Positions 19,073 through 52,811 of a DNA stretch of 64,000 nt are shown one piece after another. Where the stretch lies: NCBI GenBank assembly GCA_964036295.1, contig OZ038464.1, positions 18,398,443 through 18,462,442 of the forward strand, given 5' to 3'. Position 1 is the stretch's first letter. Every line of letters starts with the position of its first letter. The notes under the pieces were generated by a model. It was not told the origin of the DNA, ran no database searches, and was given only the letters and a program-made list of their open reading frames with translations. The stretch comes from Plumapathes pennacea. Lineage: Eukaryota; Cnidaria; Anthozoa; Antipatharia; Myriopathidae. Both the position numbers and the translations under genes were made by a program.

Positions 19073-19606
19073 GTAAGTCGCATCCTATTGGTTCCTATAT
19101 GTTCCGTTGTTCTTCTCCCATACTTCAGTCCATTGTTTTCCTCCCAAATCATAATCCGCTATTATGCTTGGTTTCACCAATGTGTTTGCGTTATTCGTGA
19201 TAACCGATCTTATAGACTTAGAGTCTTTAGCAGGCTGGCACCCAAAACCGCGGGCTTGTATAAACAGGGCCTTAGGTTCATACTATAACTTTAACACTAC
19301 GCGCGTCCTGATTGGCTAAATAACCGTGTAAGATGTCGATGAGAGTTACACGCCGACGTGATACGTAATGTATTGACGGCTTTGTGCTTTCCCTACGCTG
19401 TTCTCGTGTTCTCTCAATTTCCCGCGTGTTTAGATGAGGCTATATTACACGGGAATGCGTTATATATTTTTTAAAACAACACAATCAACTCCCTCTGAGA
19501 CGGACACCCGCGGGACCAGCTCCAACTGTCCGTTATTAGAGAGGTGTCCGTCTTAAAGAGAGTTTAGTTAGAGTAAATGACAGGGACCGTTCCTACTAGG
19601 TGTCCG

Positions 19607-19814
19607 TTAACCCTTTCGCTCCCAAGTTCAAAATGCAGACTCTCCCAGCCTTTTAAGAGGAAAACATATGAGTGATGTATTGAGAATTGATAGTTTAATC
19701 AGCTATCATCTGAGCAAGGTATCAAAAGCCAAGTTCTCCTTACTGTATGATATATTTGTGCTGCAAAACTGAGGGAGAAAATTGAACTTGATCACTTGGG
19801 AGTGAAAGGGTTAA
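19607..19814. mobile_element. CCCTTTC-CTCCCAAG inverted-repeat element (unit A copy)
   Basis: It starts TTAACCCTTTCGCTCCCAAG and ends CTTGGGAGTGAAAGGGTTAA, nearly perfect reverse complements, about 208 bp, non-coding. Related copies: 22362-22530 (partial), 30978-31165, 36755-36925, 37035-37215, 37683-37891, 40300-40465 (partial), 48823-49010 and 63606-63808. Confidence 0.85.
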
Positions 19815-20773
19815 AAGAGGGTGTTGACTGTAAGACGTTTTAATTATATGCAGTTGATTTGTTTCTCACGTTAATCAATCGCACTGGACGTGGCGCGTTG
19901 AGCCTATGAATGTGCTTTTTTCTAAATAAATTCTTGTTATTCAAATTTGAAAAGTACGGATGTTTGATACCAGATGCCCCCCCTCCCCTCCCCCCTCTTT
20001 TTTTCCCCCTGATAAAGTAGAAAAAGCTCAAGATTGTGTGGAGGAACCCGCGGACTACTGGTGTTGCATGATAGTGAAAGTTATTGGGAAACTAAGGTTT
20101 ACATAGGTTTTAATGATGTTTCTGACTGACCTCTTTATTTTATTTTTTTATGTCATGTCGGTTTGATTATACTGAGGTCTACAAGCGTCGGTCTCTGTTG
20201 GCAAAAATCCCGCGAGACCAAAAAAGGATCCTTTATAAATTATTAAAAAGGTGTGTGATTTGTCTATTCAGTCCGCCTGTTTTGCGCCGGTGGTGAATAC
20301 AACGGGTGTGCAAGGTATGTGTTACCTCACATATATCTTTCAGGCAATTATTTGGAGTAGTTAAATTAATGCATTTACTGCGCACCAAATTCCCAGGTTC
20401 GACCTGCCAATCCGGCAAAGGTGTGACCACTCGAGTGAAAGCTCTCAAAGAGCACTGTACATTCTAATTGTAGTGTCGTCTCTTTTGTTTAGTACATTTT
20501 TAGTTTAATTTAGGCTGGGAAAGGTTAAAAAAAACCTGCCATTGCCGGACAGCTAAGCGTCAGACTCACATGGTCTGACTTGGGTTGGTTGGGAGGTATT
20601 TGAAAGCTTCTATCTTTTCCCTCGTTCTACAAAACACTCTGAAATCTGTGACAAAAGTAGTGGTTCCAACTGATGTGAAAACCATCGCCAGAGCGGAGAG
20701 TATATTTATTAGACTAAAACATTTATATCCTATTCCGCAAGTGAAACTTTTATTTAGTTCTCAAAAAGTCTCG

Positions 20774-20910
20774 CCACATGCTAGCCTGAGAAAACAGACG
20801 TCTCTCATCGCGCGCTCGATCCAAACCGAACACACTCGGTTCTCGAGTGTGTTCGGTTTGGATCGAGCGCGCGATGAGAGACGTCTGTTTTCTCAGGCTA
20901 GCCACATGCT
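20774..20910. mobile_element. 121-bp perfect palindrome inserted only in unit A
   Basis: 20781-20901 has 58-bp arms and a 5-nt loop (CTAGCCTGAGAAAACAGACG... to ...CGTCTGTTTTCTCAGGCTAG). CCACATG(CT) flanks it on both sides (20774 and 20902). Unit B has the uninterrupted site TCACATGCTAAACG near 38836. This shows a recent insertion with a 7-9 bp target duplication. Confidence 0.92.
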
Positions 20911-21200
20911 AAACGAGAACAATGCCAGTCCTTGTGAAATGTACCGGTGGACACAACGCCCACATTGTATTAACCCACCCAAGTGACAGTCCGGCCGGCC
21001 ATAGCAGTTGTGCCTCGTTTTGTATCGCCCAAAGCTTACTGCAGTTAGCTGAACATTTTAAGTTGGCATCTAGCCGGTATTTGCATTCTCTTTTCAACGA
21101 TAAATATACTGCTCAGCAACACAACAGGCGAATTTGATACAAAACCCAGACTTCCTATCAGTATTCAAATTGTTCCCTTCGTCACCAAAGATTTCATTTA

Positions 21201-21885
21201 TATTAAAATAAGATACTATCCCGGGGGGAGAGGGTGGGTAGGGAAGGTAAGCGCGCGGAGGCCTGTGCCCAAACGTGTCTGAGTCATGGATAGAAGTACT
21301 TACCCTATGCCACTTACCCTATTTCAAGCCAAAATTTCATGATTTTCTATACCCTATTTCAGACCTGACTCCAAAACACATACCCTATTTTAGACCTAGG
21401 CCCGGTTTTTCAAAGCACGATTAGGATAATCCTGGATTAAAGTTTTATGTCTATGCCTGAAAATGCGAAGATTTTGTCCACAAAAACTTCCTTTATGCGT
21501 TTTTAAGCTGGAACAAGCTTTTTAATCCATCTTCGAACAAAACTCTGCAGTTTATTGGCAGCGAAGTTGAAAGAAAGAATTTCGTTAATCCTGGATTAGC
21601 TTTAATCGGCTTTCAAAAAACCGGGCCCTGACCTCAAAATGTATACCTTATTTCAGAGATTGTTTTCTGTTGCAACGATTTCCGCCCTGTGGTTTCTTCC
21701 ATTTGCCGTGCGATGTGCGCGGGGACATGCACATTTCTGTTAAAATCATACCCTATCACAGACCAAAAAGACAAAATCGATACCCTATTTAAGACCAAAA
21801 AGGCAAAATCTATACTCTATATTTCAGACTAAAAATGCTTGAAAACGAAACCTATTGGGGCGGCACATATCCCCCCCTCCCCTTC
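21201..21885. repeat. TACCCTATTTCAGACC element with a nested inverted-repeat element (unit A)
   Basis: It starts TATTAAAATAAGATACTATC followed by CCGGGGGG and ends near GGGGCGGCAC and a C run. The interior has many imperfect copies of TACCCTATTTCAGACC. The GGCCCGG element (21399-21628) is nested within. Other copies: 34511-35122 (truncated at its right end) and 39139-39815. Confidence 0.8.
21399..21628. mobile_element. GGCCCGG-type inverted-repeat element
   Basis: It begins GGCCCGGTTTTTCAAAGCAC and GATTAGGATAATCC, and ends TAATCGGCTTTCAAAAAACC and GGGCCC. About 230 bp with imperfect termini and no coding capacity. Five copies lie in this window. Confidence 0.85.
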
Positions 21886-22220
21886 CCAGGGAACACACTG
21901 TCTATAAGATTCCGGTTTTTGATTGTGTTTGAATGGTCATACTGTCTGTGAATCCTGCAATTCAGTTGTTTTATCATGCATCACTCAACAAACACAATAC
22001 TCTGAATTGAGATTTATGACTAAAATTTGCGTATCAATGCACACGGAACAAGAAGTATTATTCCCCCAGACATTAGTGCGTCTGTTCAGTTGTGTTTGTT
22101 CAGCATGCAGAGCGAAACAACTGTATTGCAGGATTCATTGACACTGTCTTGATTCACCTCGTATAGTCAGTGGAGCTAGCGAGCTTTGCACTTAAACCGC
22201 GTCGAGATTCCTCAGGAAAA

Positions 22221-25200
22221 ATGCAGAACGGGATGTGTCACGTCACTAACGTAAGTAACTCAAACTTCAACTGAATTGTTTCGTCCAGCAAACCAATAAC
22301 ACCCAAGTAATTGTGCCAGATTAGAAAAGTTGACGCTCCAGCCCTTTCACGTGATTTAGAATAACCCTTTCACTTTCAAGCTCAGAACACAAGTTTTCCC
22401 GATAACTCAAGAAGGGAAGTATGAGTGATGTACGTAGTGAGAACTGATATTTCAATCAGCTCTCATTTGAGCAAGCCATCAAATGTTATGTTATCCAAAC
22501 CGTATGGAGTGAAAAAAATGAAATATTTTGTTTCAATATTATTTTATCTTTGTTGTGAATCTGCAAGAACTCGAACTCAGATCTTCTGTCCACTTGACTG
22601 CTACTGTCAAATTTAACTTATTCTTTGAATATATTTTTGCAGGGAGATGTACAAGCACTCAAGACCAAGTTTAAAGGAACGATGAACAACGGGTCACAGG
22701 TAAGACTGTGAAGCCGCATTAACAACTGAAAGAGGCAACAGATCAGTTAGTAACTCTGCTCAACAGCAACGCCGCGAACACTGCTATCAGATTGTATTCA
22801 TTGGGAGCTTTAATTTGATTGGTCACACCTGCACTTTTCATATGACAGTTCAAGAATTGGAAGTGAACACTTTTATTAAAACGTCGAGAGCAGCTTTCGT
22901 TTGAGTGGTCACACATCTAAGTTCATTTGACAGTTCAGGAATTCGTAGTTTTCTTCGCCTATGTCAGAAATAGGGTTTTAAAAAGCGGCATCTTCTTCCC
23001 CAGTTTTGACGCAAAGTGTCTTTTTCTAAGGTTCACAATCAAGAGATCAATGGAGTCGCAGCAAATGGCACCCATCAGGAATCAAAGGTAAGTTTGCTAA
23101 GTTGTCAGGGTCAATCTTCTCCTTCCTCTTTGTGAGCAACAGTGGTATGTATGGTACGGAGAAGTTGATTGGAGATCTGTTAGCTGATCAAACTCTAAAC
23201 TTACCTTGTGCAACCGACATGTTTTCTTTGTATTAGCTCAGGAGAATCTATAAACAGCCATATTCTGCTATTAGGAGACTATATTTATTGAAAGGTTTAA
23301 TTTGAGTGGTCACACCTTTTGGTTCCATTTGAACTAATTGAGAGCTTTTGTTTGAGGTATCACACTTTCAGGTTTCATTTGACAGTTCAGAAGTGGAAAG
23401 TGAACACTGCTATTAGAATGAAATCATCGAGAGTTCATTTTCTTTTGACTGATCACAGCTTTAGGTTTCATTGGGCGATTGGAAGAGAGTTGGCCGGAAG
23501 TTCTTTGTGTTGGGTCAAGTTCAACTTTGTTTGTGATTGTGTTAAACAGCATTTGAAGTAATTGATTAGTGTCTTTTCTTTTCTTCGCACAAAGGGATTT
23601 CACGGTTCAGTGTGTGCTGATGGCACGTACTCTGACCTACTCATCTCAGTCCAGAACCAGATCGAGGAAGCCATCCCGCTCGCTCAGAAACTCATTGAGG
23701 CCGCTCCTGCTTTGAACAATAATGGAGTCTTTACCATTGCTGATTTTGGAAGCGCCGACGGCGGTACATCTATGTCGCTTATTTACGCATGCGTGGAGCA
23801 TGTTAGGAAAGTTCAAGGGCCTGACCAGCCGATTTCCGTGATCTACGAGGACCAATCAAATAACGACTTTAGGCCGCTTTTTCAGCGCCTTGAAGGTATA
23901 AATGCGTTTATCAAGTGAAAATTCTGCAATAGAATAACTGTGTACATTACATATGTGAGCCAACCCTGTCTTTGATCGATAGTGGGGACCTTAGCACAAA
24001 GGTCAGGATTAGTTATTGTTGAAGCAATGCTTTATGACGTCAAGTGAACTTAAAAACAATGGTACGTCTCCGCGGACTACAGCGGAGACAGAATTTTGCG
24101 GGAAACAAATTCTAAAAATAACTCGAGACGCCATAGGGCTCACAGACCCGTTATGGGAGATGGACGCGTCGGGGTAATGGGCTCCTGTTGAATCCCACTG
24201 CGTTGCGCGCGAGTGAAATGTTGCGAGATAAGTGGCATTAACTTGATGCTCTTTACAGGTCTTAAAGCAGGGGCCAAGACTTACCTCAAATCATTTGAAA
24301 ACGTGTTTGCTGTTGCCTGCGGCAAGAGTTTCTATGAACAGTGTGTGCCTGACTGCACTGTTCATTTTACATTCTCCGCCTTCTCCATGCACTACCTGAG
24401 CGCAAAGCCATGTGACATTACCGATGGTGCTCATCATTCCATGATCACGTGCCCAGAAGAAGAGCGGAAATATCGAGCACAAGCCGAGAGAGACTGGGAG
24501 ACAATTCTGCTCAACAGAGCCAAGGAATTGGCCCCAGGTCAGTGGAATGGAATATGTCTGTCTGTCTGTCTGTCTGTCTATGTTTTCTTCTTATTCTTTT
24601 TGTTCTTGTTCCCTCTCCACCTCCTCTTCTTCCTTTTTTTTTTTTCTACCTTTTCTTTTTCTTCTTTGTCTTCTTCTTTTCCACTTCTTTTGACCTCTGT
24701 AGGGCGTTCTTTGTCTCTATCCTTTAATCTTTGTTACTCTGTCTTTTTGAGTCTTATTGACTGTCTTTCTATTATCTGCAGGAGGTAAAATGCTGATGGT
24801 CAACCTGGTTACAAACGAGCAGGGAGAGTTCCTTGGTTATTGCAAGAGCGCGAAGACTCCCCTGTACCCGTATATAACAAGCCTGTGGAGACAAATGTTG
24901 GATGAAAAAATCATTACACAGGTACGAGACTCTAGAAAACGAATGGGAATTGAGAAAAGCCAAGAGAAATATCATTCATAAGCCCGACTGCGTTTCTGTG
25001 GATTTTTGTAATATGATGTCTTATCCTCGTTCCAGGCTCTTTTCACTACCCCCTCGCCTGGATGATGTCTACGCTCGTTAAAACGCTTGAACTATCAAAC
25101 GAAATCTAAAGCTGTAACCACTTAGACTAGTTCTCAATGAGTGCATACTTTTTATTAACCGAGTACAGTGAATTATGGACCGTCTCAAATGAAAGCTCTC

Positions 25201-26764
25201 TATGAGTACATTCTAATTCCCTTCCAACTCCTGAACTGTCAAATGATATTTAAAAGGTGTGCCCACTCAATAGGTACAGTCTAATAACAATGGTCGCGTT
25301 GTTTTTCTGTTTATGTCATTTCTTCATCTTTACCTTATTTAAATGAATACGTGTACTATTACGAACAGGAGGAATTCCACTCGATGGCCTTTGTAAACTA
25401 CTACCGCACAAAGGAAGACTGGCAGAAGCCGTTTATGTCCAAGAATTCCTCGGTTCGTAAAGCAGGCCTTTCCTTGGTGCATTTTGAGACCAGAATTGAT
25501 CGATTTGCTCGATACCGTGATCCGTTCATGAATAGCGAGAGCGGAGCCGAGGGGTACGCCAAATGGTATATAGCAATGGTGCGCACATGGACACAGTCCG
25601 GCTTCTATTCAGGTATAACATTAGAATTCATCTTGCTCGCCTCGCGGAGAGACGAAAATATGAGTCAGTGCATGGTTACATTTCAGAGCACTGGCAAGAA
25701 GCCGACAGCACAGCATGTTGAAAGATTCCCGGCTTTTACAAGTGAAGTCAAGAAATTGCCCTTTTGCCTCTCCTTATTTCTATATTCGTGTGTTGCTTTT
25801 GTAGTCGTGTCGTGCCTTCCTAGTGTTGTGCTGGTGTTGTGTCGCGTCATGCTTTTCCTCGTGTCGTGCGCGTCATGCTCGTCCTCGTGCTGTGCTCGTG
25901 CTCGTGCCGTGTCGTGCTCGTGCTCGTGCCATGTCGTGTCATGCTCGCCCTCGTTTCGTGCCTTCCTCGTGCTGTGTTTGTGCCCTTGTCGTGTCGTGCC
26001 ATCCTCGTTCTTAATTTTAGCTATTATGGTCGAACTGTCTAAAAATCAAAAAATATAAAATCGCTTATGATGCTCGTGTCTGGGTAGTCTAACACCTTCT
26101 AAACACATGCGTTGAGGCGAATTTGTGGTATTATGTTTATATATAAACAATAAACTACTTTTGGCTTCGAAAATATGCACGGATAATGTCCGAGGATATT
26201 ATCTGTTCCGAGAAGCGAACAGTTAATGTTCAGAACAGAACTGTGAGCTTCGAGGAACAGATAATGTCCAAGGACAATTATCCGTGCATATTTCCGAAGC
26301 CAAAAGTAGTTTATTATCTTTATTATCCTTCAAATATTTCCTCTCGCAGCGCAAATAACGGCGCAAGAACTGTGAAGCTCTTTAGTGCTTTCTGGAACTG
26401 CTTTTTCGACAAATGAATTGATGTCTTCCTCCGTAGTTATCTCGTAATGTTTTTTGTGATTAATATATAAAACTGTGTTCGGATATCATATTGTCAATAA
26501 ACAGCGACAGTTCTCCAGGCGGGGGTTATTCTCTGATAACGTCGGCTCGTGGGTCATAAAGCTCAATATACTCACATGAGTTTGTCAATAGTTTTTATCT
26601 GTTTTGTTTTCACAGCTTTGTCTGACTCGCGTTCGGAGAAAGAGAAGATGGAAATCGTCGACGAAGTGTACAACCGCTGGACAGTGGATGTCACTTTAAA
26701 TCCAGAAGCGCACGGCCTGGAACCGATTGTATATTCCTTTATGGCTATCGAGAAAAAAATATGA
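22221..26764 (+). CDS. SABATH-family SAM-dependent methyltransferase, unit A copy
   Basis: Exons 22221-22250, 22643-22699, 23031-23087, 23595-23895, 24259-24537, 24782-24921, 25369-25612 and 26616-26764 join to 418 residues. Motifs match the SABATH / Methyltransf_7 family: FTIADFGSADGGTSM (SAM-binding glycine loop), VIYEDQSNNDFRPLF (equivalent of the plant NDLPxNDFN segment), FSAFSMHYLS (equivalent of SLHWLS, substrate/SAM pocket), and RAKELAPGGKMLMV. Plant members methylate carboxyl groups (salicylate, jasmonate, farnesoate) or ring nitrogens (caffeine and trigonelline synthesis). The animal substrate is unknown. The first three small exons (MQNGMCHVTN, GDVQALKTKFKGTMNNGSQ, VHNQEINGVAANGTH) give a polar leader of about 48 residues that includes a DVQALKTKF stretch; they are conserved in unit B. 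No signal peptide, so probably cytosolic. It lies 1.6 kb upstream of a P450 on the same strand. Confidence 0.88.
24550..24712. repeat. (TCTG)n and polypyrimidine tract
   Basis: TCTGTCTGTCTGTCTGTC is followed by TTCTTCTT-rich pyrimidine sequence in intron 5 of the methyltransferase. Unit B has fewer TCTG units. The Ser/Phe/Leu-rich open frames here are artefacts. Confidence 0.8.
25786..26015. repeat. GTCGTGC/GCTCGTGC minisatellite (unit A)
   Basis: Imperfect units such as GTGCTCGTGCCGTGTCGTGC repeat through the start of the last methyltransferase intron. Unit B (43725-43900) has a shorter version. Cys/Val/Ser-rich frames here are not protein. Confidence 0.8.
26149..26315. mobile_element. AATAAACTACTTTTGGC hairpin element (unit A)
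   Basis: AATAAACTACTTTTGGCTTC...GCACGGATAATGTCC... is mirrored by ...GACAATTATCCGTGC...GAAGCCAAAAGTAGTTTATT. About 167 bp here. The unit B copy (44031-44150) has lost about 47 bp of the interior. Confidence 0.85.
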
Positions 26765-27031
26765 AATTGGTGGAAATGTTCAAAATCAAAATGTCCAAAA
26801 ATGGCGTAAATATGTCTGCACCGAGTAATGCACCTAGTAAAGAAATGATAGTTAAAGAAAAGAAATCTGCAAATGCTTATACCTTATCACACTGCTCTTT
26901 TAAAAATGAGTTTATACAGTGTGTTAAATGAAGTAGTTTTTTTTAGTAAGTCTGGTTATCTTGAATTTAAGTACCCCACTCTATGTGATGCTTGGTAGCT
27001 TAATCCAAAGATTGTTGCTTGGTTTAATAAC

Positions 27032-27055
27032 AATAAAAAGGAATAATTGAATAAA
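27032..27055 (+). terminator. Probable polyadenylation signals of the unit A methyltransferase
   Basis: AATAAA occurs at 27032-27037 and 27050-27055, about 270-290 bp after the stop codon. Both are conserved in unit B (44888-44893, 44906-44911). Confidence 0.5.
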
Positions 27056-27723
27056 AAACATTACCAAACTGGTCCCCCGAGCAATGCGAGGGGTTTCTAA
27101 ACGTGACGCCATGTTATCGGCTGAATGTTTGTCAGTCAGTCAGTCGTGGGGCAGACAACACTTCATGTAAAAACCAGCCGCTTAAGATGTTGCTTAAACC
27201 TAATATAAATTCGCCGGGACAGTCTATTCGAGAAATGCTGCCATTTGGCCCCCGGCGATTGCAGCGAGAATTGTTGACAAGCCCTTTGAAATCTGATTTG
27301 AAGCCCGTGTACAACTTTTCTTCAATTCTGAGAGAAATTAGGCTGTTTTGAGCGGGTTTGCAAACAAAACAATTTGTGCTTGCATGAGGCAGTGCCACCG
27401 TCCAGTGCAGTCCAGTCCAGTCCAGTCCAGAGTACAAAATATTAATCCGCATAGGAAGCCTGTTTAATTGCGCACTTCATATGGAGCAAACTGGAAAACT
27501 AGTTTGTGTTCATTTTTTCCCGTATTACGACTGACCAACTTCAAAAGTAGTAAATGCGGGAGAATGACGCGACGATGTATTTACCGTGGGAAATGCGTAG
27601 TACGGTGTCACGCAACGCAAAAATATTCTAATCTTTAATAACACGAAGTTTTCGTTCCAAAATACGGTAGCTGCACACCCGGCTATGTATGTAGACTCGA
27701 GTTTACCATTCTATTCAGTAGAA

Positions 27724-28190
27724 ATTATTAGACAAACATAGAAAGAAACTAAACTACCCGGGGCTGCGAATGTCGACAACACAATACTGCAGGCCACTGT
27801 TGTTTGGGAGGGACGAGGACACCCGTGGGAAGAACGGGGGGGAGTTTGTTCGATTGCACCGCCCCTGGGCAGTTTCAACGTGAAACTTCAACAACGATGA
27901 CTCGCCATGTCGAGCCTATTTTCATTGTGGAATAAGAATTTTGTGCTTATGTCACTTTTGAAAACTGAGCTTTAGTAACTGAACCCTGGTCCCAGAGGTT
28001 TTCTAATCTATATTATTAGACAAACATAGAAAGAAACTAAACTACCCGAGGCTGCGAATGTCGACAACACAATACTGCAGGCCACTGTTGTTTGGGAGGG
28101 ACAAGGACACCCGTGGGAATAACTGGGGGGGGGGGGGGGGGGGGGGGGGGAGATTAGAAAATCTAGATTAGAAAACCTCTGGGGCCAGGG
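27724..28190. repeat. Direct repeat upstream of the P450, second copy inside a TIR element (unit A)
   Basis: A block of about 120 bp starting ATTATTAGACAAACATAGAA occurs at 27724-27845 and again at 28012-28125. The second copy sits inside an element with termini CCCTGGTCCCAGAGGTTTTC (27984) and the reverse complement ending CCAGGG (28190). Both copies end in G runs (7 G and 26 G). Confidence 0.8.
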
Positions 28191-28373
28191 TATAGTAAGT
28201 GGGCTTTATTAACCGACCGTGCCACAATAGATGAATATATTTCTGCAATTCAAATGAGCAACTCGTCCTTTCATTCTTTCACGTCTGTGAAGGCACGCTC
28301 GACCTCAGACGGGCGACAACGACGCTGCCTTAAGAAGTGCGCCAGTGGAGAATCGCTCTCTGAAGCAAGCAAA

Positions 28374-31300
28374 ATGGTACTCGGCTTTTTTGGATTTAGT
28401 TTTGACTTTGCCATCATTGGGAATGTTCTGTTGGCTGTAATATTTCTCTCTGTGCTCCACGTGCTCATCGAGTTGTACAAGTTCAGAGGAATGCCGCCTG
28501 GACCTCGCTTCACCAGCATCCCGGTTTTCGGGAATTTCTTGAGTTTCGACGCCAGTTCGGACAGCGTCAAGTATCGGATCAAAAGGTACGATTTGGAGAT
28601 TTAATTTCCATATCGTTATGTCAAGAATTATCTCCTAACTCTGTTTTCAATTTTAAACTAAAATATGCTAAAGGGATGAACTCCTCTGAACAAAAACATG
28701 AACTCCACATTGTAATGTACTCATTCTTTTTAGTCAGTCACGCCTTTGAGTTTAATTTGATAGTCTGGGAGTTGAAAGTCAGCACTACTCTCAATACTGA
28801 TCTCGAATTGATGCAACTTTAACAATATCAGTATAAACGGTCCCCAAAGCCTGCTTTCCAAATGATCGATGGCGCGAAATCCAGCGATCGTTTGCGATCC
28901 GTGTGGAAACCAGGCTTAAGCGTGAGTAATAAAGCAGGGACACATTCAGACCATTTTACGGAAACTGGTCAGATTTGTTTTGTTCTCTGGAAATGGTATT
29001 TTGGAAACATCAAAATCTAAAGGTTTTTTGGAGAAGTATTCCCCTATACCACCCTAGAAGCTTGTTCTTTCGGCGCAGCACAGATTCGGCCAAAAAAAAA
29101 AAAAAAAAAAAAAAAAAACGGTCAGGCTTCCTTCTGTATCCGCCGCTGTACAGATTGTATGACTTTGCTTTGTTTTGCTATTTCCCCAGTCTTGTGGAAC
29201 GCTATGGTCCAGTGTTCTCGGTCCGGCTCGGCAGCTACAAAGTTGTATTTGCGTCGTCAGAAGAAGCGGTCAGCGAATTGCTGGTGACAAGGAGTTCGGA
29301 TTACTCTGGAAGGCCTCCTTTCTACAGTTTCTTGAGCGCAACCTTCGGTAAGACAATACAACTCAACCTCACACACTCATCGAAGCGCTTACACACGCGG
29401 TGGATCTTGCGAATGTCGTGAAACGAGCACGCGTTACTACACACGGGAACGCAGAAACACACTTGCGTATTAAACACACGGGCAGACAGACGCACGAACG
29501 CACACGCGCTCACACGTTTACGCGTTACCTTGCACGCGCACAGACTCATTTGCGCATGCCGCAGTCATATTCAATCACACGGGCGTTTGGCACACACACA
29601 CACACGCAGACGGGAATATGCGCGCACATGCACAAATCCTGTAAATTTATCAGTTGACAGCTCTTCGTGATAAACAGCTATGCAGTAAAAATAACCGTTT
29701 GTTTATTTTTCAGGGGGTAAAAACATGGCCATTGGTCCGGTCAATACAGCCTGGCGATTTCACCGAAAGCTTCTTACTACGTGCCTACGTAATCACTTCA
29801 GCGATGAGTTGTACATTGACGAGGTGGTATCCAAACAAGTCAGTCATATTTTCAAGGTACATATGTTTCTTCAGATTTTCTTCAGTTTTTCGGATGTCAA
29901 TCTTCATGTTATTCAAAAGCATTAACAAGTTTCGTATCGTGACTACATCTGACGTTTGAGCTGGGCCTTGTTCGCATAGGGTCGGTAAAATAAATATAAC
30001 CGTTGCCATTTATAATTTATTTCCCAGTTGTTTGATGATCAGGGAGATTCGCCGTTCGATCCAACGGACATTCTAACAGCCACAGTCGCAAACATCATCA
30101 CCGAATCCGCGTTCGGTGAAAACTTCAATGACACACACGAAGATTACAAACGATTCTTTGAACTCAACGAAGTACTCTTCAAAGACATCCAACTCAACAA
30201 AGATGTGGGACTGCTGGACTTTTTTCCATTGGCGAAGTATTTCCGGCCAAAAGCGTACAAAAAAGCAGACTACTGCGCGCTAGAAGCTCGGAAGATCGCG
30301 CTCAGACAAGTCGAGAAGAGAAAGAAGATGTTTGATCCGGAAAAAGACGAAGCCCGCGACTTGGTCAGTGTTCTCTTGAAAGCAAGACACGAAGTGGAAA
30401 AAGAGGGCGACAAACAAAAAGAAGCCATGTTAACCGACGAGTACTTTGCCAACAGTTTGGAGACAATGTTCAGCGCGGGATACGATCCCACAAAGTAAGA
30501 CTGCTGTTCATGGCCAAAAATTGTCCCGAGAACCATACCGCACCCTCGTTCCTGGGCGAACCAACTAAACATACAATTCTTTTAATCTCAGTAAATCGTT
30601 TACATTAGAAGGCGTCCCTGCCCCCCGAAACAAGACATATTTAGGTTTCATTTGATAGTTGTAATTTTACGGCTACAATCAAATGCAAAAGTAGTTGAGA
30701 CACTGTGCATATTTTGAGCAATTTATCGGCTTTTAAGTTTTGTTGATTTCTGCCCCCTCTCCCCCCGTCTCAATGTTGTTCGGGCCTGAAATCTCGTTGT
30801 CCGATATTGGATACTCAACATTAAAACGGGGAAGGGGGGGGAAGATGCTGTCAAATGAAATCCAAATGAGAGTGAGGGAATAGAAGAGAAGAATGGGTCT
30901 TTTTCTGCGAGTGTCTCAATTATTTTGCATTTGATTGTAGGGCTATGAAGTGCATGGTTCAAACACTTTTAAGCTGTTTAACCCTTTTTCTCCCAGGTTC
31001 ATAGTGCATATTCTCCCAACCCTTCAAGAGATCAAATATGTGGGTAATGAACTGATAGTTCAATGAGCTGTCATCTGAATAATCTATCGGAAGCCAGCTG
31101 GTTCTCCTCCGGTATTGTTTATATATCTCTGGTGAGAGACTAAAAGAGAATATTGAAGATGATCATTCTTAGAAGCCGGTTTAAGGCCATTTAGACATCT
31201 AGACTACGGGGTCACATATTTTCTTTTTCTCCCGGCTAGCACCGCTCTCAGGTGGGCCGTCGCGTTCCTGGCAAGTTACCCACAACACCAAGCGGCCATT

Positions 31301-31634
31301 CAGCGGGAACTCGACGAGGTGGTGGGGCGAGACCGCATGCCAAAAATGAGCGACCGGCCCAGGCTCCCACTGATGCAGGCCGCCATCATGGAGACTCTTC
31401 GTCTGGGAAACGTGTTGGAGACGGCCCTCCCTCATTACACCATTACTGATACTACCCTATGCGGATATAGGGTGCCTAAAGGTTAGAGACGGAGAAGGAG
31501 TCCGGCGCAAAAACGGGGACTGGACCGAATTTTCTTCAATTTCAAAAGGAACCATTTCCGTTTTCCTGCATTTCTGATGTGTAATGATTTGCACGCGTCA
31601 AGACAGCTCGGAACTGGTCAATTTTGTCACTCTT

Positions 31635-31673
<39 letters not shown>

Positions 31674-32343
31674 TCTTTTTAACTGTTTGATCCAGGCTTT
31701 AACGAATATCACTTTTACTTACGCTGCTCTATGTTAGATATCGACATTTTGAGTTTTTCGACATTTTTTGATGGCTGCGTGAATTATTCCGGCAAGTATA
31801 TTAATGTACGATGGACGCCGTTAAGAAATTTAACTTGACGTTCCGAACAGGTTAAGCTAAGTAACGCTTTAAACGCCAGCTTACTACCAGTTCGGTGTTA
31901 ATCTCATTCAAATCAAGGTGAACCTAACTTGCTACATTATTTAACAATTCAAACTATCACACGTTTTCACGGAGACTAAGCATTTTATTGTATTCCTAAG
32001 TTAAGTTATTTTTACAGGCACAGTGGTTCTTCCCATTTTGGTGTCTGTACATCTGGACCCTAAAGCCTGGAAGAACCCCGAAGAGTTCAACCCTTACCGC
32101 CATCTCGACGACAATGGCAAAGTACTCCTGAGTCCCAAAAGTTACTTCCCTTTCTCCGCCGGCCGCCGAGCGTGCCCGGGCGCACCCACAGGGAAACAGG
32201 AGCTGTACATGGTGCTCAGCAAAGTACTACACCGATACACCTTCATTCCGGAGAATGGTAACTACCCCATCGACTTGACAGGAGTCAAAGCTTTTGCCAG
32301 ATATCCCAAGCCGTATAAGGTTCGCGCCATCAAGCGTCAATGA
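28374..32343 (+). CDS. Microsomal cytochrome P450, CYP2-clan type, unit A copy
   Basis: Exons 28374-28585, 29190-29347, 29714-29856, 30028-30494, 31240-31481 and 32018-32343 join to 515 residues, the usual P450 length. The N-terminus MVLGFFGFSFDFAIIGNVLL plus AVIFLSVLHVLIEL is a membrane anchor, followed by the proline-rich hinge MPPGPRFTSIPVFGN. C-helix WRFHRK (W-x3-R), K-helix METLRL (E-x2-R) and heme loop FSAGRRACPG with the axial Cys are intact. The I-helix reads SAGYDPTNT, with Pro where the usual acid-Thr pair has Thr, and the PERF region is FNPYRHL. The family performs NADPH-dependent monooxygenation at the ER; the substrate is unknown. An upstream in-frame ATG (28254) exists, but unit B breaks that frame, so 28374 is preferred. 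Confidence 0.92.
29091..29118. repeat. Poly-A tract only in unit A
   Basis: A run of about 25 A in P450 intron 1 is absent at the equivalent unit B site (46951), where GGCCA runs directly into CGGTC. Confidence 0.85.
29370..29640. repeat. Cryptic (CACACG)n tract
   Basis: ACACACGCGCACAC-like sequence fills P450 intron 2 and is shared with unit B at 47205-47470. Arg/His/Thr-rich frames are repeat artefacts. Confidence 0.7.
31631..31672. repeat. (ATTT)n microsatellite
   Basis: About ten TTTA units lie in P450 intron 5. Unit B has about five (near 49480-49503), with one substitution. Confidence 0.9.
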
Positions 32344-43100: not shown

Positions 43101-44599
43101 GACCATCTCAAATGAAAGCTCTCTATGAGTACATTCTAATTCCCTTCCAACTCCTGAACTGTCAAATGATATTTAAAAGGTGTGCCCACTCAATGGGTAC
43201 AGTCTAATAACAATGCTCGCGTTGTTTTTCTGTTTATGACATTTCTTCATCTTTACCTTATTTAAATGAATACGTGTACTATTACGAACAGGAGGAATTC
43301 CACTCGATGGCCTTTGTAAGCTACTACCGCACAAAGGAAGACTGGCAGAAGCCGTTTATGTCCAAGAATTCCCCGGTTCGTAAAGCAGGCCTTTCCTTGG
43401 TGCATTTTGAGACCAGAATTGATCGATTTGCTCGATACCGTGATCCGTTCATGAATAGCGAGAGCGGAGCCGAGGGGTACGCCAAATGGTACATAGCAAT
43501 GGTGCGCACATGGACACAGTCCGGCTTCTATTCAGGTATAACATTAGAATTCATCTTGCTCGCCTCGCGGAGAGACGAAAATATGAGTCAGTGCATGGCT
43601 ACATTTCAGAGCACTGGCAAGAAGCCGACAGCACAGCATGTTGAAAGATTCCCGGCTTTTACAAGTGAAGTCAAGAAATTGCTCTTTTGCCTCTCCTTAT
43701 TTCTATATTCGTGTGTTGCTTTTGTAGTCGTGTCGTGCCTTCCTAGTGTTGTGCTGGTGTTGTGTCGCGTCATGCTTCTCCTCGTGTCGTGCGCGTCATG
43801 CTCGTCCTCGTGCTGTGCTCGTGCTCGTGCCGTGTCGTGCTCGTGCTCGTGCCATGTCTTGTCATGCTCGTCCTCGTGTCGTGCCATCCTCGTTCTTAAT
43901 TTTAACTATTATGGTCGAACTGTCTAAAAATCAAAAAATATAAAATCGCTTATGATGCTCGTGTCTGGGTAGTCTAACACCTAAACACATGCGTTGAGGC
44001 GAATTTGTGGTATTATGTTTATATATAAACAATAAACTACTTTTGGCTTCGGAAATATGCACGGAACAGATAATTCGAGGAGCTTCGAGGAACAGATAAT
44101 GTCCAAGGACAATTATCCGTGCATATTTCCGAAGCCAAAAGTAGTTTATTATCTTTATTATCCTTCAACTGTTTCCTCTCGCAGCGCAAATAACGGCGCA
44201 AGAACTGTGAAGCTCTTTAGTGTTTTCTGGAACTGCTTTTTCGACAAATGAATTGATGTCCTCCTCCGTAGTTATCTCGTAATGTTTTTTGTGATTAATA
44301 TATAAAACTGTGTTCGGATATCATATTGTCAATAAACAGCGACAGTTCTCCAGGCGGGGGTTATTCTCTGATAACGTCGGCTCGTGGGTCATAAAGCTCA
44401 ATATACTCACATGAGTTTGTCAATAGTTTTTATCTGTTTTGTTTTCACAGCTTTGTCTGACTCGCGTTCGGAGAAAGAGAAGATGGAAATCGTCGACGAA
44501 GTGTACAACCGCTGGACAGTGGATGTCACGTTAAATCCAGAAGCGCACGGCCTGGAACCGATTGTATATTCCTTTATGGCTATCGAGAAAAAAATATGA
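40155..44599 (+). CDS. SABATH-family SAM-dependent methyltransferase, unit B copy
   Basis: Exons 40155-40184, 40577-40633, 40965-41021, 41532-41832, 42196-42474, 42704-42843, 43292-43535 and 44451-44599 have the same lengths and phases as the unit A gene and give 418 residues. The SAM loop ADFGSADGGTSM, YEDQSNNDFRPLF and FSMHYLS are unchanged. Differences I can see are D to N in exon 2 (GDVQ to GNVQ), ITDGAHH to ITNGVHH in exon 5, FVNYY to FVSYY and KNSSV to KNSPV in exon 7. None touches the SAM loop. Synonymous and intron changes outnumber these, which suggests both copies remain under constraint or the duplication is very recent. Same uncertainty about substrate as unit A. Confidence 0.88.
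43725..43900. repeat. GTCGTGC/GCTCGTGC minisatellite (unit B)
   Basis: Shorter counterpart of 25786-26015; unit A carries extra units near its 3' end. Confidence 0.8.
44031..44150. mobile_element. AATAAACTACTTTTGGC hairpin element (unit B)
   Basis: Same termini and position as 26149-26315, but the left arm is internally deleted, so the hairpin is shorter (about 120 bp). Confidence 0.85.
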
Positions 44600-45583
44600 A
44601 ATTGGTGGAAATATTTAAAATCAAAATGTCCAAAAATGGCGTAAATATGTCTGCACCGAGTAATGCACCTAGTAAAGAAATGATAGTTAAAGAAAAGAAA
44701 TCTGCAAATGCTTATACCTTATCACACTGCTCTTTTAAAAATGAGTTTATACAGTGTGTTAAATGAAGTAGTTTTTTTTAGTAAGTCTGGTTATCTTGAA
44801 TTTAAGTACCCCACTCTATGTGATGCTTGGTAGTCTTCGACATAATTCTCTTAGCTTAATCCAAAGATTGTTGCTTGGTTTAATAACAATAAAAAGGAAT
44901 AATTGAATAAAAAACATTACCAAACTGGTCCCCCGAGCAATGCGAGGGGTTTCTAAACGTGACGCCATGTTATCGGCTGAATGTTTGTCAGTCAGTCAGT
45001 CGTGGGGCAGACAACACTTCATGTAAAAACCAGCCGCTTAAGATGTTGCTTAAACCTAATACAAATTCGCCGGGACAGTCTATTCGAGAAATGCTGCCAT
45101 TTGGCCCCCGGCGATCGCAGCGAGAATTGTTGACAAGCCCTTTGAAATCTGATTTGAAGCCCGTGTACAACTTGTGCTTCGATTCTGAGAGAAATTAGGC
45201 TGTTTTGAGTGGGTTTACAAACAAAACAATTTGTGCTTGCATGAGGCAGTGCCACCGTCCAGTGCAGTGCAGTCCAGTCCAGTTCAGAGTACAAAATATT
45301 AATCCGCATAGGAAGCCTGTTTAATTGCGCACTGCATATGGAGCAAACTGGAAAACTAGTTTGTGTTCATTTTTTCCCGTATTACGACTGACCAACTTCA
45401 AAAGTAGTAAATGCGAGAGAATGGCGCGACGATGTATTTACCGTGGGAAATACGTAGTACGGTGTCACGCAACGCAAAAATATTCTAATCTTTAATAACA
45501 CGAAGTTTTCGTTCCAAAATACGGTAGCTGCACACCCGGCTATGTATGTAGACTCGAGTTTACCATTCTATTCAGTAGAAATT

Positions 45584-46065
45584 ATTAGACAAACATAGAA
45601 AGAAACTAAACTACCCGGGGCTGCGAATGTCGACAACACAATACTGCAGGCCACTGTTGTTTGGGAGGGACGAGGACACCCGTGGGAAGAACGGGGGGGG
45701 GGGGGGGGGGGGGGGGAGTTTGTTCGATTGCACCGCCCCTGGGCAGTTTCAACGTGAAACTTCAACAACGATGACTCGCCATGTCGAGCCTATTTTCATT
45801 GTGGAATAAGAATTTTGTGCTTATGTCACTTTTGAAAACTGAGCTTTAGTAACTGAACCCTGGTCCCAAAGGTTTTCTAATCTAGATTATTAGACAAACA
45901 TAGAAAGAAACTAAACTACCCGGGGCTGCAAATGTCGACAACACAATACTGCAGGCCACTGTTGTTTGGGAGGGACAAGGACACCCGTGGGAAGAACTGG
46001 GGGGGGGGGGGGGGGGGGGGGGCGGAGATTAGAAAATCTAGATTAGAAAACCTCTGGGGCCAGGG
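45584..46065. repeat. Direct repeat upstream of the P450, second copy inside a TIR element (unit B)
   Basis: First copy about 45584-45716 with a 24-G run; second copy about 45887-46022 with a 24-G run, inside the element bounded by CCCTGGTCCCAAAGGTTTTC (45858) and the reverse complement ending at 46065. Confidence 0.8.
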
Positions 46066-46243
46066 TATAGTAAGTGGGCTTTATTAACTGACCGTGTCAC
46101 AATAGATGAATATATTTCTGCAATTCAAATGAGCAACTCGTCCTTTCATTCTTTCACATCTGTGAAGTTCGACCTCAGACGGGCGACAACGACGCTGCCT
46201 TAAGAAGTGCCCCAGTGGAGAATCGCTCTCTGAAGCAAGCAAA

Positions 46244-49200
46244 ATGGCACTCGGCTTTTTTGGATTTAGTTTTGACTTTGCCATCATCGGGAATGTTCTG
46301 TTGGCTGTAATATTTCTCTCTGTGCTCCACGTGCTCATCGAGTTGTACAAGTTCAGAGGAATGCCGCCTGGACCTCGCTTCACCAGCATCCCGGTTTTCG
46401 GGAATTTCTTGAGTTTCGACGCCAGTTCGGACAGCGTCAAGTATCGGATCAAAAGGTACGATTTGGAGATTTAATTTCCATATCGTTATGTCAAGAATTA
46501 TCTCCTAACTCTGTTTTCAATTTTAAACTAAAATATGCTAAAGGGATGAACTCCTCTGAACAAAAACATGAACTCCACATTATAATGTACTCATTCTTTT
46601 TAGTCAGTCACGCCTTTGAGTTTAATTTGATAGTCTAGGAGTTGAAAGTCAGCACTACTCTCAATACTGATCTCGACTTGATGCAACTTTAACAATATCA
46701 GTATAAACGGTCCCCAAAGCCTGCTTTCCAAATGATCGATGGCGCGAAATCCAGCGATCCGTATGGAAACCAGGCTTAAGCGTGAGTAATAAAGCAGGGA
46801 CACATTCAGACCATTTTACGGAAACTGGTCAGATTTGTTTTGTTCTCTGGAAATGGTATTTAGGAAACATCAAAATCTAAAGGTTTTTTGGAGAAGTATT
46901 CCCCTATACCACCCTAGAAGCTTGTTCTTTCGGCGCAGCACAGATTCGGCCACGGTCAGATTTCCTTCTGTATCCGCCGCTGTACAGATTGTATGACTTT
47001 GCTTTGTTTTGCTATTTCCCCAGTCTTGTGGAACGCTATGGTCCAGTGTTCTCGGTCCGGCTCGGCAGCTACAAAGTTGTATTTGCGTCGTCAGAAGAAG
47101 CAGTCAGCGAATTGCTGGTGACAAGGAGTTCGGATTACTCTGGAAGGCCTCCTTTCTACAGTTTCTTGAGCGCAACCTTCGGTAAGACAATACAACTCAA
47201 CCTCCCACACTCATCGAAGCGGTTACACACGTGGTGGAACTTGCGAATATCGTAAAACGCGCACGCGTTACTACACACGGAAACGCAGAAACACACTTGC
47301 GTATTAAACACACGGGCAGACAGACGCACGAACGCACACGCGCTCACACGTTTCCGCGTTACCTCGCACGCGCACAGACTCGATTTGCGCATGCCGCACT
47401 CATATTCAATCACACGCGCGTTTGGCGCGCACACACACGCAGACGGGAATATGCGCGCACATGCACAAATCCTGTAAATTTATCAGCTTGACAGCTCTTT
47501 GTGATAAACAGCTATGCAGTAAAAATAACCGTTTGTTTATTTTTCAGGGGGTAAAAACATGGCCATTGGTCCGGTCAATACAGCCTGGCGATTGCACCGA
47601 AAGCTTCTTACTACGTGCCTACGTAATCACTTCAGCGATGAGTTGTACATTGACGAGGTGGTATCCAAACAAGTCAGTCATATTTTCAAGGTACATATGT
47701 TTCTTCAGATTTTCTTCAGTTTTTCGGATGTCAATCTTCATGTTATTCAAAAGCATTAGCAAGTTTCGTATCGTGGCTACATCTGACGTTTGAGCTGGGC
47801 CTTGTTCGCATAGGGTCGGTAAAATAAATATAACCGTTGCCATTTATAATTTATTTCCCAGTTGTTTGATGATCAGGGAGATTCGCCGTTCGATCCAACG
47901 GACATTCTAACAGCCACAGTCGCAAACATCATCACCGAATCCGCGTTCGGTGAAAACTTCAATGACACACACGAAGATTACAAACGATTCTTTGAACTCA
48001 ACGAAGTACTCTTCAAAGACATCCAACTCAACAAAGATGTGGGACTGCTGGACTTTTTTCCATTGGCGAAGTATTTCCGGCCAAAAGCGTACAAAAAAGC
48101 AGACTACTGCGCGCTAGAAGCTCGGAAGATCGCGCTCAGACAAGTCGAGAAGAGAAAGAAGATGTTTGATCCGGAAAAAGACGAAGCCCGCGACTTGGTC
48201 AGTGTTCTCTTGAAAGCAAGACACGAAGTGGAAAAAGAGGGCGACAAACAAAAAGAAGCCATGTTAACCGACGAGTACTTTGCCAACAGTTTGGAGACAA
48301 TGTTCAGCGCGGGATACGATCCCACAAAGTAAGACTGCTGTTCATGGCCAAAAATTGTCCCGAGAACCATACCGCGCCCTCGTTCCTGGGCGAACCAACT
48401 AAACATACAATTCTTTTAATCTCAGTAAATCGTTTACATTAGAAGGCGTCCCTGCCCCCCGAAACAAGACATATTTAGGTTTCATTTGACAGTTGTAATT
48501 TTACGGCTACAATCAAATGCAAAAGTAGTTGAGACACTGTGCATATTTTGAGCAATTTATCGGCTTTTAAGTTTTGTTGATTTCTGCCCCCTCTCCCCCC
48601 GTCTCAATGTTGTTCGGGCCTGAAATCTCGTTGTCGGATATTGGATACTCAACATTAAAACGGGGAAGGGGGGGGGGGGGGGGGGGAAGATGCTGTCAAA
48701 TGAAATCCAAATGAGAGTGAGGGAATAGAAGAGAAGAATGGGTCTTTTTCTGCGAGTGTCTCAATTATTTTGCATTTGATTGTAGGGCTATGAAGTGCAT
48801 GGTTCAAACACTTTTAAGCTGTTTAACTCTTTTTCTCCCAGGTTCATAGTGCATATTCTCCCAACCCTTCAAGAGATCAAATATGTGGGTAATGAACTGA
48901 TAGTTCAATGAGCTGTCATCTGAATAATCTATCGGAAGCCAGCTGGTTCTCCTCCGGTATTGTTTATATATCTCTGGTGAGAGACTAAAAGAGAATATTG
49001 AAGATGATCATTCTTAGAAGCCGGTTTAAGGCCATTTAGACATCTAGACTACGGGGTCACATATTTTCTTTTTCTCCCGGCTAGCACCGCTCTCAGGTGG
49101 GCCGTCGCGTTCCTGGCAAGTTACCCACAACACCAAGCGGCCATTCAGCGGGAACTCGACGAGGTGGTGGGGCGAGACCGCATGCCAAAAATGAGCGACC

Positions 49201-50172
49201 GGCCCAGGCTCCCACTGATGCAGGCCGCCATCATGGAGACTCTTCGTCTGGGAAACGTGTTGGAGACGGCCCTCCCTCATTACACCATTACTGATACTAC
49301 CCTATGCGGATATAGGGTGCCTAAAGGTTAGTGACGGAGAAGGAGTCCGGCGCAAAAACGGGGACTGGACCGAATTTTCCTCAATTTCAAAAGGAACCAT
49401 TTCCGTTTTCCTGTATTTCTGATGTGTAATGATTTGCACGCGTCAAGACAGCTCGGAACTGGTCAATTTTGTCACTCTTTTATTTATCTATTTATTTATT
49501 TATCTTTTTAACTGTTTGATCCAGGCTTCAACAAATATCACTTTTACTTACGCTGCTCTATGTTAGATATCGACATTTTGAGTTTTTCGACATTTTTTGA
49601 TGGCTGCGTGAATTATTCCGGCAAGTATATTAATGTACGATGGACGCCGTTAAGAAATTTAACTTGACGTTCCGAACAGGTTAAGCTAAGTAACGCTTTA
49701 AACGCCAGCTTACTACCAGTTCGGTGTTAATCTTATTCAAATCAAGGTGAACCTAACTTGCTACATTATTTAACAATTCAAACTATCACACGTTTTCACG
49801 GAGACTAAGCATTTTATTGTATTCCTAAGTTAAGTTATTTTTACAGGCACAGTGGTTCTTCCCATTTTGGTGTCTGTACATCTGGACCCTAAAGCCTGGA
49901 AGAACCCCGAAGAGTTCAACCCTTACCGCCATCTCGACGACAATGGCAAAGTACTCCTGAGTCCCAAAAGTTACTTCCCTTTCTCCGCCGGCCGCCGAGC
50001 GTGCCCGGGCGCACCCACAGGGAAACAGGAGCTGTACATGGTGCTCAGCAAAGTACTACACCGATACACCTTCATTCCGGAGAATGGTAACTACCCCATC
50101 GACTTGACAGGAGTCAAAGCTTTTGCCAGATATCCCAAGCCGTATAAGGTTCGCGCCATCAAGCGTCAATGA
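46244..50172 (+). CDS. Microsomal cytochrome P450, CYP2-clan type, unit B copy
   Basis: Exons 46244-46455, 47024-47181, 47548-47690, 47862-48328, 49085-49326 and 49847-50172 equal the unit A exons in length and phase and give 515 residues. The heme loop FSAGRRACPG, ETLR and the unusual I-helix AGYDPT are all identical to unit A. Differences seen are V to A at residue 2 (MALGFFGF) and F to L next to the C-helix Trp (WRLHRK). In unit B a short deletion upstream removes the longer open frame, which supports 46244 as the true start. The same upstream duplicated block and TIR element precede it. Expressed status cannot be judged from sequence. Confidence 0.92.
48668..48686. repeat. Expanded poly-G tract in P450 intron 4
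   Basis: 19 G here against 8 G at the equivalent unit A position (30834-30841). Confidence 0.9.
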
Positions 50173-52811
50173 TGTCATTTGCAGCCTGTGCTCAGATAGA
50201 TTCCCAAAATACTCGTGTGGGACTGAAAAGAAAAGTGTACATAGCATAGAAAGAATTCATAGTTGGATCGGCTGCTTGATATGTAAGTGATCAGAAGCTA
50301 AGTTCTTTATACCATTCACAAAGAGACAGGGCATGTGGCATAAAGAGAATTTATAGTTGGATCGGCTGCTTGATGTGCAAGTGATAAGATGCTAAAACTT
50401 CTCCCTGCCTTTCACGAAGAGACAGTCCCTGTGGATGACAAACCTTCCGCATATTTGGATCAGCTGAAAACTGTCGGCATCAGTGTGTTATTAAAAGGTT
50501 CTGTTGGACTGTAATGCACTTGTTCCCTGTTTTTGTCAGTTTCCTTGCCTCCCCGACTTTGCTGATTATAATTTTAAAGCTTTTCAAATGCACCACCCCA
50601 TTCGCGCGCTCGGAACTATGGAGTACAGGCCGCCTAGAGATTGTGCATCCTTTCACTTCTACAAATTCAGCTGTGAACGCACACTTTGATTGCCTCTTGC
50701 AAGTTTGTCTCATGTCCAGCAAGTTGCCACCAAATTTCATTTACAATTATCTAGCGTCTATAATACAAGCACGGTTGTACCCAGCTCCAATCGTTACGTT
50801 TCATTGATTTTCTTCTGTTTCGCCTGCGTGAGTGCGTGCGTGCAAATATTTTCGTGCAAACTGATATGAAATGTTTACAATTATGTCGGACAAAATGAAA
50901 GTTTCGCTCGCGAATTCCTCCAAACTAAACTGGCCTGGCCCAGACGTTTTACCGTTTCATATTGTCATTCGATTTGACTTCAACTGCCTCGAGTGTGTTT
51001 GTGCGGTAATGGGCTTCCGTTTTGGCTTCGGGAATTCCGTTTTCTCGTCTGGAGCAAGAAGAAACCACGTGTGCCGTGAGTACTGAATGAGCCGACCAGA
51101 AGTAAGGTATTTCCCTCCAAACTAATTTTCGTGTATCAAACTGCGTGCAAAGATATCATTTTTTCTTCCTTACACTTTCTTGAACGAAAACGTTTGGAAG
51201 AAAACCCCGAACTGCTAACAGTTGAAGTTGAATTCGTTCGGGTTTAAATGTTCGACTAACTGTTCCATATTCTTTGAAATCCTTTTGTACATTGTTTTGC
51301 AAAGCTCTGATTGTTGTTAATCTTAAGGGATTAGACTGAAATGTTATGTAAATAATCGTTTGGAGCGAATTCAGATTACTTTTAAAAATGAGCAGGGTGA
51401 GCCTGGGGCAGGGGCACTTCTCATATAAACGGTTCACTTGAGTATAAAGAAATGTATAAGTAGTTGGCGCGCCCTCATGTAGTTTCAAATACTCTCAAAA
51501 GGTTATTATCATACATTTGCAAACTAAATCATTTCTCTGGTAACAGGCATACATGTTAGCTTTCCCGTCGTCAGAGCAATTGCCTAAAACTAACGTACGT
51601 ACCCAGTAATAACACCACATTGAAAATGAAAACAGTGAAGTGACGTTATATAGCTCTTAACAGAGAGCGAGACTTCATTCACGTTGGCTGTCGACGAGTG
51701 CTGATTGGTTCCCAAACTGTTTCCGGTTGCGAAGGTGTCAGATGTGTTGTCACGCGTCAGTGCGCGCGCGCAGACTTCAAACTCACAGCGTACCGTCGAT
51801 CTACACTAAGAACGTTTGCCTTGGATCCCAACTAACTTATCGAGAATCAAGCAAGTTGAAGGTAAATTGCAGTATGCACTGTTTCTTTTCTAGCATTTCT
51901 ATAGCAAGTTTGATGTATTTGAGTGGCAAAATGGCTTGCACCAGAGAAAGCCGAGGCCCAGCTTTACCTCACTATGCAAATTATGACTCACCTAGCAGAC
52001 AAAATCTTCTCTGGTAGTGCTTTCCCACAGTCATCATAAACTGTAAAATATAGAAGGGGCTAGAAGCTTAAATTTACAGATCTATGAGAGAACTGTACAT
52101 TACGTTTACCTCTGCTCCACTATTCCGACGTTCCAGGTCCAAGTTCATTTTTACTGCAAATATGGATCTGCATGCTTGAGTAGCCTTCATTGAAAACTTT
52201 GGAAAATATTTTATTTTATTTCCCTTTGTGTTCCATCAGCTCTAGAAACTTCAGAATCTTCTCCTTGGCTCAGCTTTTACTAGACTAAGAGTGAAATGAG
52301 AACTAAAACATCAATCGGTGATATCGGCTGCCGTGTCCATTGCTGAGAACTGCAGAAAATACGATATGTTTCGAAACAGCTTTGTTGGTGCTGATCAAGA
52401 AGTAAAAAAGACTGCCTTAGAACATAAACAGTGTAACGAACTCCAGCCGATCCAAAAATAACAATGTCACGTTGTGTTAATTGCACAATCTAAAAGGAAA
52501 AAAATACAATTATTTGGTGATATGGTAAGTTATTCAATCTAAAATTTAAATATTGTAATTTTTGTTCAGAAGAAAAAACTGTTTTCTTCTTTTAAAATTG
52601 TTGTATGGCGCAATTTTGAACTCGTATGCAATTTCCTACGACAAGAGAGGACTAGATTTAAATGTCTGGCAATATGGTAGCCTAAGCTTGAACGTGTCTA
52701 AGCGTGTCGAAAGGTTTCGTCGACTGACTGTGTAATCTAAAATCACACTTTGCGTTTCACACTGATGTCATTCTTCGCTGATCTCCAAAGCCAAAAAGAA
52801 GACACCAGAAC
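50173..52811. other. P450 3' region, end of unit B and upstream region of the SLC18B1-like gene
   Basis: Unit B homology ends at about 51711. Between 51712 and 52811 no exon, known repeat or clear promoter motif was recognised. CGCGTCAGTGCGCGCGCGCA near 51753 is locally CpG-rich. Confidence 0.45.

Follow-up and report, generated by a model that had tools for sequence, protein, structure and literature searches.

A probable recent interspersed duplication of a methyltransferase-P450 gene block, with one copy inside a broken choline transporter, in Plumapathes pennacea

Tandemly duplicated genes account for 29.9% of the genes of one coral and 32.6% of those of another in the figures quoted from PMC10236652, and methyltransferase and P450 domains belong to those that frequently occur together in the animal biosynthetic gene bundles of sponge genomes treated in the accessible part of PMC12833800. 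In this study we describe a locus that recalls both kinds of system. It lies in a window of 64,000 nucleotides from the antipatharian Plumapathes pennacea (assembly GCA_964036295.1), positions 18398443-18462442 of contig C3 (OZ038464.1), and the genome searched comprises 290.0 Mb in 24 contigs. The window contains two direct copies of a 14.5-kb block, here called A and B, each with one gene for a SABATH-type methyltransferase and one for a P450. We consider it very probable that they stem from a real, recent and interspersed direct duplication of a single block.

Self-BLAST returned the blocks as direct repeats whose outer ends fall exactly on the bounds proposed in a first-pass annotation made from the sequence by itself (Table 1). 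A MAFFT alignment over 19219-33897 comprises 14,310 aligned sites, of which 229 are mismatched (1.6%), and 14.3 kb at 98.4% identity rules out chance similarity. As the first-pass annotation had noted, the copies are not a literal echo of each other: their lengths are unequal through many gaps, with 22 runs in one row of the alignment and 25 in the other after removal of 250 alignment columns at each end. The largest gap, 128 bp, corresponds to a stretch at 20773-20900 that is present in A only. In self-BLAST, 20780-20902 aligns to its reverse complement at 96.8%, a near-perfect palindrome, as would be expected of a small mobile element. Non-coding sites differ more often (215/11,617, 1.85%) than coding sites (13/2,661, 0.49%) in a comparison with slightly trimmed ends (19232-33878), which suggests constraint on both genes since the split. 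Counted per 1 kb, the non-coding differences show a mildly uneven spread (variance/mean 2.1, permutation p 0.02), with few of them in 29.8-32.4 kb (13/1493 vs 202/10124). Gene conversion between A and B was considered here and is not supported; the short introns of this interval may be constrained instead.

The surroundings of the two blocks differ. Block A sits between exons 1-2 and exons 6-7 of a broken second copy of a choline-transporter gene, of which an intact copy lies upstream of both blocks and encodes a sodium/choline symporter close to the high-affinity choline transporter 1 (PDB 8j74, E 1.5e-131; PF00474). Exons 3-5 of the second copy were not found; within 264 kb around and including the window, these exons occur once, in the intact gene. 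The blocks do not adjoin each other, being separated by a spacer of 3,379 bp. A simple back-to-back tandem was rejected because neither the flanks nor the split transporter fit it. The original description as a tandem oversimplifies the arrangement: A is placed inside the split transporter, whose 3' half forms part of the spacer.

The transporter copies have diverged further than the block copies. They show a synonymous divergence (dS) of 0.079 and a non-synonymous divergence (dN) of 0.021 over 948 nt, several-fold above A vs B, in a count that leaves out the end of exon 7 with its indel and several changes. The two halves of the second copy are of similar order when compared with the intact gene (dS 0.11 over 270 nt and 0.066 over 678 nt). 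The matching pieces of the transporter copies are 92.6-96.1% identical in self-BLAST and their introns align at the edges only, unlike the introns of A and B; conversion limited to exons, or replacement of introns by repeats, are possible explanations. Within the intact transporter gene we also observed a dispersed repeat of ~405 bp with inverted ends (14363-14771), with 38 other matches at 93-96% identity among the best 40 candidates.

Flanks were compared on the plus strand with E up to 1e-3. Between the 5 kb left of A and the 3.4 kb left of B, the older transporter exons (94-96%) and 59 bp at 76% were the sole matches; between the 3.4 kb right of A and the 5 kb right of B, the sole matches were two stretches of ~120 bp (69-70%). 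The sequence closest to A (1 kb on the left, 1.4 kb on the right) had no match in this comparison, and for the 1.1 kb right of B (51712-52800) no other match was found in the genome, with 18 of 18 candidates scored and very common words skipped. Nor did we find a third copy of the block. The left part of the block returned A and B only, repeats aside, among the best 40 of 10,483 candidates, and the DNA of the P450 region likewise returned A and B only, besides a ~270-bp intronic repeat and short weak pieces, among the best 40 of 1,710. A dispersed repeat of ~617 bp has an end that coincides within ~2 bp with the right edge of A, its edges having been compared in two other copies; it may be a breakpoint mark or a later insertion. 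This flank-and-host-gene test, which asks whether each copy lies in its own non-homologous sequence, is usable without reads.

Table 1. Positions of the duplicated blocks, their genes and adjoining features (window coordinates)
Feature	Position	Strand	Details
Block A	19219..33897	+	14,679 bp; self-BLAST, MAFFT
Block B	37277..51711	+	14,435 bp; self-BLAST, MAFFT
Spacer between blocks A and B	33898..37276	.	gapless; includes 3' half of second choline-transporter copy
SABATH-type methyltransferase A	22682..26764	+	likely 18-nt first exon at 22682; 23595-23895, 24259-24537, 24782-24921, 25369-25612, 26616-26764
SABATH-type methyltransferase B	40616..44599	+	likely 18-nt first exon at 40616; 41532-41832, 42196-42474, 42704-42843, 43292-43535, 44451-44599
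P450 A	28374..32343	+	exons 28374-28585, 29190-29347, 29714-29856, 30028-30494, 31240-31481, 32018-32343
P450 B	46244..50172	+	exons 46244-46455, 47024-47181, 47548-47690, 47862-48328, 49085-49326, 49847-50172
Intact choline-transporter-like gene (CHT1/SLC5A7-like)	11479..16306	+	7 exons; 1, 2, 6, 7 splice-bounded, 3-5 placed by eye
Second transporter copy, exons 1-2	18663..19072	+	18663-18822, 18959-19072; directly left of block A
Second transporter copy, exons 6-7	35302..36439	+	35302-35528, 35936-36439; between A and B
Dispersed repeat, ~617 bp	33896..34512	.	40 other matches, 95-96% identical (best 40 candidates)

An alternative that has to be weighed is an assembly artefact in which A and B are two alleles of one locus placed in series, as in the heterotype false duplications of PMC9516828; we regard it as improbable. 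Like the cases in the available part of that source, A and B diverge at haplotype level. Their 1.6% equals coral-level heterozygosity, which is 1.14% and 2.3% in the two corals for which PMC10236652 gives values, and the first-pass annotation was right to place the divergence within the range of coral haplotypes. The transporter 3' exons at 15.1-16.3 kb and 35.3-36.4 kb might likewise be taken for allelic sequence that precedes each block; these exon sets, however, differ by the dS of 0.079 given above, and their introns do not align throughout as those of A and B do. Also unlike the described false duplications, the pair shows no gap (0 N in the 264,000 bases that comprise the window and its surroundings) and no shared flanks beyond the older exons and short weak pieces, and a gapless satellite array nearby, described below, would suggest a long-read assembly. 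With no third copy among the scored candidates in addition, the artefact that the first-pass annotation had left open has become less likely.

Several points nevertheless weigh against a real duplication. The divergence of 1.6-1.85% lies within published coral heterozygosity, and for this reason divergence alone cannot separate paralogues from alleles. Tandem duplicates and allelic pairs are very distinct in their synonymous divergence (Ks) according to the portion of PMC10236652 at hand, and because its Ks is so low by that comparison the A/B pair would be atypically young for a true tandem pair. False duplications can be joined by sequence without read support, as the relevant part of PMC9516828 states, and the gapless sequence may still contain an unsupported join. 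The repeat at the right edge of A might mean that the flank there was altered after the duplication, the searches in this repeat-rich DNA scored the best 40 candidates in each case, and the age order of A and B proposed below is the one that takes the fewest steps.

A real duplication, which we continue to prefer, might be carried by just one of the haplotypes of the animal sequenced. Such a copy-number polymorphism would be a variant of our interpretation and does not exclude it; we consider it possible but doubtful. It would agree with the very low A/B divergence, and the accessible text of PMC9516828 reports a tandem duplication confined to one allele as a true case; on the other side, the assembly yielded no second haplotype.

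If the duplication is real, the events might have occurred in three steps. The choline-transporter gene would have been duplicated first (dS ~0.08), and the methyltransferase-P450 block would have been positioned downstream of the second transporter copy, where B now lies. Later (dS ~0.006-0.02) a copy of the block, now A, would have been inserted into the second transporter, where it took the place of exons 3-5 and thereby destroyed that gene. The copying might have proceeded by replication-based template switching or through an unequal exchange accompanied by a deletion. We lean towards B as the older and A as the younger copy, because this order takes the fewest steps: the insertion of A and the loss of exons 3-5 would fall into one event. 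The opposite order, with A ancestral and B inserted 3.4 kb downstream as the derived copy, is likewise a variant of a real duplication and seems rather unlikely; the geometry by itself permits either direction, but a separate event would then be needed to remove exons 3-5 of the transporter that surrounds A. A real duplication would be a clear case of a single local event in which two unrelated enzyme genes were copied together and a neighbour was broken, with so little divergence that alleles and paralogues can hardly be distinguished.

That each block holds one open methyltransferase gene and one open P450 gene, as first described, is borne out by intact gene models, built from the sequence with GT-AG splice sites, and by matches to Pfam PF03492 and PF00067. 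A and B agree in the length of each of their 11 modelled exons, namely 301, 279, 140, 244 and 149 for the methyltransferase (370 residues) and 212, 158, 143, 467, 242 and 326 for the P450 (515 residues). Together with a likely first exon of the methyltransferase this gives 12 exons per block (5 + likely first + 6), and the 14 matching exons counted initially were not reproduced. Two amino-acid changes had been seen in the P450, and these are V2A and F139L (2/515 residues); the methyltransferase differs at four residues (D156N, A158V, N250S and S268P, 4/370) rather than at about five. The A/B synonymous divergence, suggested earlier as a check, amounts by the NG86 method to a dS of 0.021 (dN 0.0046) in the methyltransferase and 0.0058 (dN 0.0017) in the P450. 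Because the counts of differences are so small, we read the dN/dS ratios no further than that the genes are probably constrained. The splice sites and reading frames of the models are preserved in both copies, and the duplication probably raises the dosage of these two enzymes.

The 18-nt first exon of the methyltransferase, chosen by hand among 12 candidates shared by A and B, likely codes for MNNGSQ and ends in CAG before GTAAGA in both copies. The 370 residues that follow match PF03492 with E 2.7e-34 (119.3 bits against a cut-off of 29.8), the SABATH profile covering residues 42-348. Among solved structures the fatty acid O-methyltransferase 5f2k is closest (residues 22-266 align, E 8.7e-25), followed by plant loganic acid and salicylic acid methyltransferases and relatives. 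No prokaryote relatives were found by a short exact peptide search, which is weak evidence, and a search of NCBIfam yielded no names. Across the genome, PF03492 matched ten exons, of which four belong to blocks A and B and six lie on another contig, C5 (2.02-2.04 and 2.32 Mb). The translated matches of the C5 paralogues at 2.02-2.04 Mb break near residues 100, 193, 240 and 321, where the window genes have their exon junctions. In the motif FSxxxMHYLS, A and B have Tyr where 5f2k and three of the four C5 paralogues read have Trp: two of the four carry MHWLS, one LHWLS and one MQFLS, in a count outside which loci L034 and L036 fall, their sequences not being caught by the pattern. The Trp at this position is presumably a substrate-carboxylate contact in the plant SABATH enzyme.

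The P450 matches PF00067 above the cut-off (E 1.2e-103, 347.8 bits), and its translation carries the ExxR motif as ETLR, the motif FNPYR and the heme loop with its Cys as FSAGRRACPG. It resembles clan 2 P450s, the best solved match being zebrafish CYP17A1 (6b82, E 9.1e-72). The I-helix of both copies reads AGYDPT (from residue 321) and departs from the consensus [AG]Gx[DE]T[TS] by a Pro for the Thr. This Thr is present in all seven paralogues read (six AGYETT, one AGLETT). Of these paralogues, taken from 67 listed matches with the window's own exons included, six rank among the eleven best and the seventh is a weaker match. AGYETT is listed for CYP3348 among others in PMC8110760. Tables 1-3 of that paper cover 85 CYPs of three cnidarians, of which 2 lack the motif and none in these tables has Pro at the position. 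A loss of the Thr is not unique, since several cnidarian CYPs have other residues in its place, such as GGYEKL in CYP3343A1, AGSDIT in CYP3094K1/K2 and AGYEST in CYP3341A3 and others (same tables). The window P450 genes also differ in exon structure from their eleven best paralogue matches, which have one open frame through the last 283 residues where A and B have introns, with 6 exons in all; 1-3 exons are typical of cnidarian CYPs in the part of PMC8110760 consulted. The Pro in place of Thr makes this P450 a biochemical oddity that can be tested, in what is otherwise an ordinary tandem-type duplication.

Other features of the region were noted in passing. An older local duplication lies left of the window (C3 ~18325.7-18332.3 and 18338.1-18346.6 kb), with pieces 85-89% identical. 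The satellite array mentioned above is gapless over 17.6 kb with a period of ~334 bp (shifted self-alignments 88-97%); it begins 4 kb past the window end, at 67976-85583 in window coordinates (C3 ~18466.4-18484.0 kb). Right of block B there are two adjacent copies of ~630 bp at 53735-54984, 93.6% identical in self-BLAST, an ATC repeat of 396 bp at 55602-55997, and exon pieces at 52.8-60.5 kb that by eye resemble a multi-pass (MFS/SLC18-like) transporter, a rough concatenation of which had no Pfam match. An Ion_trans (PF00520) exon is located at 6140-6388 on the minus strand (E 1.7e-8). A search for the GFP family as a coral marker had no match anywhere, not even in its 14 controls, and carries no information on this point.

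It would be tempting to regard the two genes as a two-enzyme module with changed chemistry. A SABATH carboxyl methyltransferase with Tyr for Trp and a Thr-less P450, beside a choline transporter, might make an acid methyl ester, perhaps a methyl-farnesoate-like signal, and the duplication might reflect selection for more product; judging from the predicted proteins, we think this very improbable. If it were true, the P450 with Pro for the I-helix Thr may rearrange or dehydrate its substrate rather than hydroxylate it. A conserved methyltransferase-P450 cluster elsewhere in the genome was also considered; no P450 was present at the six C5 methyltransferase loci read (~3.2-3.6 kb each, two overlapping). 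Likewise none of the 67 listed P450 matches, obtained with the last 283 residues as query, fell near 2.02-2.32 Mb of C5.

JHAMT, the acid methyltransferase of the arthropod sesquiterpenoid hormone pathway, belongs to another methyltransferase family than SABATH. The pairing of JHAMT with the P450 CYP15 (PMC9181382, in part) is a functional comparison only, and the cnidarian sesquiterpenoid pathway published in the same source ends at farnesoic acid. PMC2291459 concerns, in the part seen, a leucine carboxyl methyltransferase, a different enzyme. Among the titles and abstract openings of the papers listed in our literature searches, none dealt with a SABATH methyltransferase adjoining a P450 in corals; one of these papers, PMC11214833 on sponges, does use the word SABATH. 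Unlike the bundles of PMC12833800, as far as its accessible part describes them, the methyltransferase and P450 of A and B are linked by position alone and known here from their genes. The resemblance to the coral tandem duplicates of PMC10236652 is closer. Following the definition in its available text (same contig, at most 10 genes apart, at least 80% protein alignment), the members of each gene pair share 366/370 and 513/515 residues, with the blocks 3.4 kb apart, and like those duplicates they are near neighbours with intact genes on one gapless contig. The differences are that the block consists of two unrelated genes, that its Ks is in the allelic range and that one copy lies in a broken third gene. 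In conclusion, A and B are most probably a local duplication of a kind that coral genomes contain in very large numbers, and what sets this one apart is the disruption of a neighbour gene by one of the copies.

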